Shown piece by piece: positions 12,569 to 31,817 of a stretch of DNA of 33,207 nt. The notes beneath the pieces were generated by a model. It saw nothing but the letters and a program-made list of their open reading frames with translations. It was not told the DNA's origin and made no database searches. A program made the translations under genes and the position numbers. Origin of the DNA: Cytophagaceae bacterium. Lineage in GTDB: Bacteria > Bacteroidota > Bacteroidia > Cytophagales > Cytophagaceae. The stretch spans positions 1 to 33,207 of the forward strand of contig JAIERY010000336.1 in the NCBI GenBank assembly GCA_019746425.1, given 5' to 3'. Every line of letters begins with the position of its first letter. Positions within the stretch are counted from its first letter, which is position 1.

Positions 12569-12652
12569 GTTCGTATCTATCGACTTACTGTCATTCAGAA
12601 GGAAACTTGTAATTTAATTGCAGTGCCATAAAAAATTATTCGGGCATTATTT

Positions 12653-12694
12653 AATGGCAGAACACATAAACAACAATATCCTTGCGGGATGACA
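12653..12694. repeat. Half copy of TTGTCATCC-terminated repeat family
   Basis: This stretch has the same length (42 bases) and layout as the right half of the element at 18983-19090: AATGGCAGAA at the left, then ATCCTT and GGATGACA at the right end. The left arm is missing. It lies in the spacer between copA and the propeller-like gene. Confidence 0.6.
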
Positions 12695-17174: not shown

Positions 17175-17535
17175 AAAACGTCCTGAAAATTAAAAATTAT
17201 AAGCTTCATTTCAAATCTTTGACCATGATTTGCAACATTTCCCGCTAAAGACACATTGCCGCCAACTTAACGAGTAGAATTACTGTAGACTTTGTATCCT
17301 AAATTAAAACACAAATGTATCCGTCATTCCCCTGAAAAGGGGAATCTCTAACTCCTGCACAATCTTAACTGTATTATCAGATTTTGTGCAGAGGTCGGAG
17401 ATTCCCACGTACGTGGGAATGACGGCAAACTTTTCACCTATAACTTACTCCACAATGTCTGCTAAGATCACCTCATTAAAAAGCTTTAGTTTGACAATGC
17501 GCTAAAGACGGGACAAGTTATGGTTTTTCATCAAT
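17175..17535. other. Gene-free spacer carrying a composite repeat
   Basis: The 361 bases between the dsbD start and the dipeptidase stop contain no convincing reading frame. The main content is composite repeat copy 1 (17321-17425), described separately. The rest is AT-rich sequence that must include the dsbD promoter (near 17175-17320) and the 3' end of the dipeptidase transcript. Confidence 0.7.
17321..17425. repeat. Composite inverted repeat with dRS3-like palindromic arms, copy 1
   Basis: The two ends form a terminal inverted repeat of about 42 bases starting CCGTCATTCCC. Each arm contains its own palindrome: ATTCCCCTGAAAAGGGGAAT at 17326-17345 and ATTCCCACGTACGTGGGAAT at 17401-17420. 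Beyond the palindrome the arms continue to match (GGGAATCTC, then CTGCACAA). The loops of the two palindromes differ, while their stems agree. Total 105 bases. No transposase is inside. Confidence 0.85.
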
Positions 17536-21202: not shown

Positions 21203-21236
21203 AGGTTAGAAAGTTGCAGGCATGTCATGTTTTCTC

Positions 21237-21373
21237 CGTCATTCCCGCGCAGGCGGGAATCTCATACTTCTGTATTATGTTAAACTATTGAGAAATTGTA
21301 TGCATAATAAGAATTACTATGCAAGGTGAGAGTAATGCTACTATTGGAGATTCCCGCCTGCGCGGGAATGACG
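21237..21373. repeat. Composite inverted repeat with dRS3-like palindromic arms, copy 2
   Basis: The ends 21237-21263 and 21347-21373 are perfect inverted repeats of 27 bases starting CGTCATTCCCGCGCAGGCGG. Each arm contains the palindrome ATTCCCGC-N4-GCGGGAAT, so the element can fold either as two small hairpins or as one long one. The total is 137 bases. It lies between the pseudouridine synthase stop and the transporter start and ends 4 bases before the GTG start at 21378. Confidence 0.9.
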
Positions 21374-21377
21374 AAAA

Positions 21378-27779: not shown

Positions 27780-27887
27780 TTGTCATTCAGGAGGAACCTT
27801 GTTAATTAATCCGCGATGCCTCAAATTATATTAAATAATTATTAATGGTAGCATTAATTAACTGACAAGATCCCTTCTGGATGACAA
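27780..27887. repeat. MITE-like repeat with TTGTCATCC termini, full copy B
   Basis: The left end starts TTGTCATTCAGGAGGAACCT and the reverse complement of the right end starts TTGTCATCCAGAAGGGATCT. Both arms continue into CTTGT and ATTAAT. The outer 20 bases of the right end are identical to the left end of copy A (18983). The element is 108 bases and lies between the T9SS gene and mazG, which converge here, so it may also act in transcript termination. Confidence 0.8.
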
Positions 27888-31506: not shown

Positions 31507-31633
31507 CCGTCATTCCCCCGCAGGCGGGAATCTCCGCTAAGAAATTATAAAATATAATTTAATAGAGGATGTATCTATGATGTACCCCATTATTCCGAAT
31601 GTGTACAGAAGGACGAGATCCCCGCCTGCGGGC
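31507..31633. repeat. Composite inverted repeat with dRS3-like arms, degenerate copy 3
   Basis: The left arm reads CCGTCATTCCCCCGCAGGCG then GGAATCTC (31507-31534). The right arm is GAGATCCCCGCCTGCGGGC (31615-31633), in which the terminal GGGAATGACG has decayed to GGGCAAAAT. The GCAGGCGGG core is shared with copy 2. The middle is unrelated AT-rich sequence. Confidence 0.75.
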
Positions 31634-31720: not shown

Positions 31721-31817
31721 GGAGCTGTCTCAAAAGTCCACTTTGCTAAATTTCATCTTTGTTTTTGAGCAAATTTCGAATATATTTTTTCAAAAATCAG
31801 ACTTTTGAGACAGCCTC
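31721..31817. mobile_element. 97-bp MITE-like element or IS remnant with GCTGTCTCAAAAGTC ends
   Basis: GCTGTCTCAAAAGTC at 31724-31738 is the exact reverse complement of 31800-31814. The outer bases are GGA on the left and CTC on the right. The 61 bases between are AT-rich and non-coding. TGTCTCAAAA-type ends occur on transposase-bearing insertion sequences (IS1182-like, from memory), so this is probably a non-autonomous derivative or end-to-end deletion product. No clear target duplication was seen. Confidence 0.65.

Follow-up and report, generated by a model that had tools for sequence, protein, structure and literature searches.

The repeat at positions 17321-17425 of the window (the whole stretch of DNA analyzed, 33,207 nucleotides from a Cytophagaceae bacterium), here called copy 1, is probably, at about 0.64, a non-autonomous deleted copy of a small hairpin-ended mobile element whose GIY-YIG nuclease would cut the hairpins and spread it. 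Its assignment as a dimer of CGTC-tagged REPs and as a deletion derivative of a nuclease cassette like that at locus C411 is well supported by sequence comparison. The action of the nuclease on the hairpins, the joining of strands and the spread that the nuclease would drive are steps that we infer.

The core of copy 1 is an inward-facing, head-to-head pair of CGTC-tagged hairpins separated by a 53-nt spacer, with the left edge CC-GTCATTCCC starting at 17321/17323 and the right edge GGGAATGAC-GG ending at 17423/17425, in agreement with the limits given by the sequence-only reading that preceded this analysis. The left arm, GTCATTCCCCTGAAAAGGGGAATC (17323-17346, forward strand), is composed of an 8-bp stem and a 4-nt loop, and the right arm, GTCATTCCCACGTACGTGGGAATC, occupies 17400-17423 on the reverse strand. 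The terminal inverted repeats, estimated earlier at about 42 bases, are 42 nt each (17321-17362 and 17384-17425) and are unlike at 10 of 42 positions, six of these lying within the N8 of the ATTCCC-N8-GGGAAT core. Homology with the cassette ends and outer flanks of C411 (L088) and with five short copies defines an extended copy 1 at 17285-17465, in which an outer motif TAGAC (17286-17290, forward strand) is placed 37 nt before the left GTCAT tag and a corresponding CAGAC (17457-17461, reverse strand) 38 nt outside the right arm. A GCCGTCAACTTAAGG-like sequence at 17258-17272 recurs outside several elements of the copy 1 class (C450, C432 and C401) and is inverted in some copies, as though the elements sit within another repeat.

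The exact ATTCCC-N8-GGGAAT core occurs five times in the window compared with 0.12 expected, a number reached by none of 100 shuffles (the count allowed up to one mismatch and all five occurrences are exact). The proposed likeness of this core to the neisserial dRS3 repeat is borne out, and dRS3 has itself been placed in superfamily CGTC-1 (PMC3733652). As single strands the whole copies fold as long hairpins, with z = -7.05 for copy 1 (0 of 200 shuffles as good) and z = -10.7 for copy 2, the commonest short class, which spans 21236-21374 with 135 bp between tags and arms at 21238-21261 (forward) and 21349-21372 (reverse); the nested palindromes and the long-hairpin fold suggested from the sequence are both supported. 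Copy 3 retains a single intact arm at 31509-31532 (forward), its truncated opposite arm at 31615-31632 having been spotted by eye. A search of the window against Rfam returned nothing at gathering scores.

In the genome as a whole the arm pattern GTCATTCCC-N(4-12)-GGGAATC has 39 exact matches (21 forward and 18 reverse) and none for the same pattern read backwards; with three mismatches allowed there are 116 matches compared with 15 for the reversed pattern. The fetched loci of the genome contain 27 distinct inward-facing pairs, five of 97-101 bp, 15 of 133-138 bp, two of 155-156 bp, four of 419-430 bp and one of 390 bp belonging to another class, so that the paired architecture for which a genome-wide search had been suggested is present. 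From these loci, mostly brought in via searches for the stem sequence, 68 distinct arms were gathered, of which 63 remained after a stem and flank filter. The tag is preceded by C in 90% of the 68 arms (C before GTC) and the tail is CTC (T 0.79, C 0.88), not CCA.

The sequence-only reading held that loops vary and stems are kept, as expected if the small hairpins are selected. The constraint on the small hairpins stands, as it is seen in covariation, but the N8 is not loop throughout: each arm is an 8-bp stem with a 4-nt loop, and the CT..AG, AC..GT and GC..GC combinations are therefore compensating stem pairs. In 23 distinct arms (5 of 30 were dropped and then 2 of 25 left out as poor hairpins or members of another class) 97.8% of stem cells pair, and double-change cells number 27 compared with an average of 7.8 in shuffles (none of 500 has as many) and with 0-5 in slid versions of the alignment, the slid control retaining the relatedness between rows that inflates the shuffle tests. 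The number of pairs with a double change (four; 316 of 500 shuffles reach it) and of further pair types (six; 500 of 500) are not above shuffles. Picking arms by CGTCAT-N16-ATC[TC]C, which leaves the six inner pairs unconstrained, gives the same 23 arms, with 132 of 138 inner pairs Watson-Crick.

The four pairs of 419-430 bp (C408, C411, C367 and C210) each enclose an open frame of about 100 amino acids that encodes a GIY-YIG nuclease. Two of the cassette ORFs match PF01541 with E values of 3.7e-15 and 3.7e-16 when compared with Pfam, and in the genome search all four match it with E values from 1.2e-11 to 1.4e-15. Both motif tyrosines and an Arg, a His, a Glu and an Asn are invariant in an alignment of eight nucleases, and these are residues of the catalytic type. 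The closest solved structures by sequence are the UPF0213 proteins 1zg2 and 1ywl. Copy 1 and C411 are alike across the arms and outer flanks, with 72 of 86 positions identical at the left end and 62 of 88 at the right, and further close short relatives of copy 1 are present at C181, C232, C432, C450 and C321. Because copy 1 is homologous to C411 at both ends, the simplest view is that it arose by internal deletion and is non-autonomous; it has the make-up of a MITE, a short non-coding copy with ends common to a coding element.

The cassettes are dispersed at unrelated places in the genome. C210 and C408 share 88% identity over 444 bp and their homology ends no more than 8 bp from the tags, and the similarity of C408 and C367 extends about 55 nt beyond one arm. 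Over the first 40 nt outside the four cassettes some similarity persists (the first left 20-nt bin, for instance, has 9-16 matches of 20, compared with a random mean of 7.5 and a 95th percentile of 10), and farther out the flanks are mostly near random.

Of the 14 PF01541 matches in the genome, 11 are COG2827-like as grouped by sequence, COG2827 being the family name of this nuclease sub-family. All 11 genes have an inward GTCAT on each side at a distance of up to 300 nt, as do 4.4% of random window places, and the two other small GIY-YIG genes of the genome are without inward GTCAT on both sides. At least five classes can be told apart among the nuclease arms (GTCATTCC..., GTCATCCTGAGC..., GTCATTCAGRAGG..., GTCATTGCGAG... 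and GTCATTTCGA...), and dispersed copies are found for others besides that of copy 1: the second nuclease-arm class has nine sites, four of them at a nuclease gene, and the third has 34 sites with the nuclease-flanking ones counted in. One locus (L099) is a decayed nuclease copy. A two-sided hairpin grammar is passed by only 4 of the 11 own loci in its relaxed form and 3 of 11 in its strict form, the outer stems of several classes being short or degenerate.

The same arrangement is found around nuclease genes far from this genome. GTDB contigs were scanned with the nuclease alignment and the best 80 of 555 loci were taken, of which three were dropped for short flanks, leaving 77. Under the grammar relaxed to a 5-bp outer stem, a choice made because other classes were seen to have short outer stems, GTCAY-tagged hairpins bracket the gene at 49 of the 77 loci; 15 loci have them on a single side and 13 lack them. 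The controls gave 2 two-sided and 75 one-sided cases in 1798 windows taken from these loci, and none when the 77 loci were read in reversed sequence (Fisher p = 5e-74, the control windows within one locus not being fully independent). The strict grammar gives 28 of 77 on both sides, 10 on one and 39 on none, with 1 of 1798 controls. The bracketed loci belong to at least nine phyla as read from record titles: Bacteroidota, Pseudomonadota, Omnitrophota, Nitrospirota, Chloroflexota, Calditrichota, Patescibacteria, Planctomycetota and Desulfobacterota. An inverted-repeat score calculated around the gene has a median of 20 over the 80 loci compared with 11 over 1428 control windows. Outward-facing arms on both sides are seen at 19 of the 77 loci, indicating that some nuclease genes sit in arrays.

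Since the GTDB loci had been picked by similarity to bracketed genes, a second sample was taken without regard to the flanks. PF01541 matches were collected from 31 genomes spread over the phylum, this genome (G000) included, and were used as the negative set in place of YhbQ because few convincing YhbQ matches were found in relatives. The sample has 143 matches (14 own and 129 other). For the 129 outside this genome, 89 stretches were examined, 29 from the search, 40 with short frames and 20 with long frames, selected by frame length and never by flank. Short flanks removed 5 of 56 small rows and 17 of 33 long rows. Of 10 COG2827-like genes, nine have the two-sided bracket and one has no arm on either side, the sub-family being delimited by a score cut of 90 that was fixed after the scores were seen (the gap runs from 94.8 to 77.5) on a model built from the bracketed genes of the window's genome. 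None of the 41 other small GIY-YIG rows, which contain two genes twice (L245/L274 and L280/L288), is bracketed and two are one-sided (L276 and L277); none of the 16 long rows is bracketed and one is one-sided (L312). The bracket is thus specific to one GIY-YIG sub-family in this sample.

The two arms of a locus also resemble each other, and the arms follow the protein. Left-right similarity over nine stem positions is 0.85 compared with 0.56 for shuffled partners (0 of 2000 reach it; n = 56), and arm similarity follows protein identity over these 56 loci (Mantel rho 0.23, p = 0.001). This tracking fits a co-evolution of enzyme and site, and vertical descent of whole cassettes would give the same pattern.

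Named relatives were examined in a plasmid collection, in which 33 records have a nuclease match and regions were taken from eight, three of them the same Sphingobium site. Three of these records (NZ_CP119140, NZ_CP119142 and CP090106) are filed as plasmids and are chromosome-like in size, CP090106 also in gene content. The relaxed grammar finds both sides at 3 of the 6 distinct sites. In Sphingobium, Rhizobium CIAT894 and Sinorhizobium meliloti the nuclease gene is flanked by a matching pair of tagged hairpins, with one extra base in the tag of the S. meliloti right arm, and a homologue in Neisseria gonorrhoeae, on a chromosome-sized record filed as a plasmid, sits among dRS3 arms. By eye, a CCTC-tagged hairpin is seen only downstream of the Rhizobium tumorigenes gene, and CTCAT-tagged hairpins are seen near that of Sinorhizobium K101.

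Comparison of strains shows that these sites are fluid, and does not show clean insertion. Both flanks of the Sphingobium site are present in 11 records, with the cassette placed between fnrL and a response regulator in seven and absent from four, two of which have a solo palindromic hairpin and two other DNA. On the Sphingobium plasmids (L191-L193 and L198-L202) one intergenic site is therefore seen as a full cassette, a solo hairpin or different DNA. The number of dimers varies among strains of the R. tumorigenes group, with a replaced stretch, and among Sinorhizobium strains, apparently by tandem duplication; the query strain is 434 bp longer than most of the S. meliloti records listed, the aligned stretch stopping short of that junction. 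Another Rhizobium query gave no informative second record and a 36-base repeat query matched its own record only. A clean empty site or target-site duplication was found in none of the Sphingobium, R. tumorigenes group and Sinorhizobium comparisons.

A nuclease that moves its own ends is the best reading of these observations. The full-length form would consist of one gene, for a COG2827-like GIY-YIG nuclease of about 100 amino acids, between two inward-facing CGTC/TGTC-tagged hairpins of the form [C/T]GTCAY-stem-loop-stem-RTC[T/C]. The nuclease would recognize the tagged hairpin in its extruded or single-stranded state, such as arises at replication forks, and would cut beside the tag, allowing the cassette and any DNA with matching ends, such as the short copies, to be copied or excised; joining elsewhere would proceed through host replication and repair. 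GIY-YIG nucleases are hydrolytic and we know of no strand-transfer activity among them, which counts against the model. The failure to find a clean empty site or target-site duplication, the 28 of 77 GTDB loci that do not have hairpins on both sides and the loci with outward-facing arms weigh in the same direction. A candidate for a further signal is the outer motif of copy 1. YAGAC is present within -46 to -30 of the tag in 33 of 63 arms compared with a 1.5% background, placed 36-38 nt outside GTCAT, and is end-specific: all 14 ends of type C carry it, as do 16 of the 29 of type A, 2 of the 12 of type B and 1 of 8 others, types A, B and C having been sorted by a hand-made rule. The DNA between YAGAC and the tag is little conserved in the commonest class, and the motif may be a target or a cutting-distance signal.

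The closest competitor to this model, and an unlikely one, holds that the GIY-YIG protein is a domesticated nuclease serving the host, for example by limiting incoming single-stranded DNA or resolving hairpins, with the dispersed hairpins as its sites and the nearby repeats regulating its gene; spreading repeats would then not be its job. The Ssn family, reportedly comprising site-specific single-strand GIY-YIG nucleases of Neisseria that affect transformation, lends it weight, being likewise made up of small GIY-YIG nucleases with sequence-specific targets in many genomic copies; the Ssn work may already cover part of the link between nuclease and repeat. The genes that sit in arrays rather than simple cassettes point the same way. 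A mobile element is a better fit to the similar cassettes at unrelated places of one genome, to the five nuclease-arm classes accompanied by a decayed copy, and to presence and absence between strains.

Still less probable is that another transposase (RAYT/IS200, IS110/Piv or other) moves the pairs, which would then be REPINs or MITEs, with the nuclease as a passenger. A head-to-head palindrome pair does resemble a REPIN, and the genome has five Y1_Tnp and two IS110-type matches, the only families searched. These were the enzymes put forward by the sequence-only reading, and neither is supported as the mover: none of the five Y1/RAYT-type loci contains any such arm and neither of the two IS110/Piv loci has inward arms on both sides. 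The small GIY-YIG nuclease, which is the protein found between arms, was absent from those candidates. RAYT and other tyrosine transposase genes are likewise present in CGTC-bearing species and none is flanked by CGTC units (PMC3733652), and arms that match the enzyme across phyla are not what one would expect of a passenger. Phage-type integration at the arms, suggested by the parallel with dRS3, was not seen in the one test made, a tblastn search of the nuclease against 50,697 phage records, which gave no match. Very improbable is the last alternative, in which the repeats are old, immobile intergenic hairpins acting as RNA or DNA signals (mRNA stability or termination) and the nuclease association is a by-product. 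Stems kept by covariation would suit such a role, as would the placement of 35 of the 39 exact arms outside ORFs of at least 120 amino acids, although such ORFs, not all of them real genes, cover 86% of the window. It accords poorly with a lineage-specific expansion, a search of 59 genomes having found the exact arm pattern in two, one of them this genome, and with an association limited to one nuclease sub-family.

The repeat itself is a variant of the CGTC-REP/dRS3 superfamily. CGTC-tagged REPs, in families CGTC-1 to 4, have been reported from five phyla including Bacteroidetes (Di Nocera et al. 2013, PMC3733652). The features of these REPs are found here, namely a terminal CGTC/TGTC tag (CCTC also being among the REP tags), an 8-bp stem starting with AT and closed by a loop of 4 nt, in keeping with the 8-9 bp and 4-5 nt of these REPs, and mostly head-to-head dimers in intergenic positions. 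The tail differs, being CTC here, where most of those in the survey fit CCA (PMC3733652), which makes this repeat a variant. The survey reported no dedicated transposase or other enzyme for CGTC REPs, and its main text has no occurrence of "giy" (PMC3733652). The GIY-YIG genes flanked by repeats here are a difference that bears on that conclusion and not on the identity of the repeat, and the enzyme link potentially answers the open question. No paper joining a GIY-YIG nuclease to CGTC, dRS3 or REP repeats was found among the matches listed, most subscription papers and some open ones lying outside the search. The dRS3 repeat shares the ATTCCC-N8-GGGAAT core and the nuclease homologue among its gonococcal arms; it is the neisserial CGTC-1 member (PMC3733652), whereas the present repeat forms a separate, lineage-specific family, mostly of 97-138-bp pairs.

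Two better known systems offer partial parallels. In REPIN/RAYT (IS200-like TnpA-REP) an inverted palindrome pair is likewise a non-autonomous replicator and the matching enzyme gene is flanked by the same palindromes, but the enzyme here is a GIY-YIG nuclease in place of an HUH tyrosine transposase and the tag is GTCAY in place of GTAG. Homing endonucleases of the I-TevI type are GIY-YIG enzymes tied to a mobile element and make their cut a fixed distance away from where they bind, which offers a lead for the YAGAC at -37; unlike these, the cassettes show no intron, end in hairpins and encode a protein of about 100 amino acids, too small for a separate DNA-binding domain.

Taken more broadly, the chances are about even that these cassettes represent a widespread class of mobile element in which a single GIY-YIG nuclease of about 100 amino acids replaces the transposase, with GTCAY hairpin stems that diverge freely and stay matched to their nuclease; such a class would be the missing engine of the CGTC REPs, of dRS3 and of the GTCATCCTGAGC..., GTCATTGCGAG... 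and GTCATTTCGA... repeats around nuclease genes of several phyla. To our knowledge this nuclease type is not used by known bacterial insertion sequences, and it would be added to them if the model is true, which would also provide many natural enzyme-hairpin pairs with a specificity readable from sequence. The spread of CGTC repeats, described as enzyme-less (PMC3733652), would be explained by such a pairing of enzyme and site, recurring as it does in at least nine phyla.

The window also holds repeats of other kinds. Arms of a class other than that of copy 1 are found at 12590-12602 (GTCATTCAGAAGG, forward) and at 27782-27794 (GTCATTCAGGAGG, forward), the latter with its opposite arm GTCATCCAGAAGGGATCT at 27868-27885. 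The stretches 12590-12694 and 27782-27885 are two copies of the GTCAT-tagged class GTCATTCAGRAGG, which has 34 sites genome-wide and whose nuclease-bearing versions are L091, L093 and L094. About half of 33 copies of the third class have no outer mark of the YAGAC kind but a GACATTGGCAG-like stretch on the inner side, from +23. Adjoining copy 3, an inverted repeat GCTGTCTCAAAAGTC ... GACTTTTGAGACAGC at 31724-31814 has by eye the look of a separate small transposon remnant.
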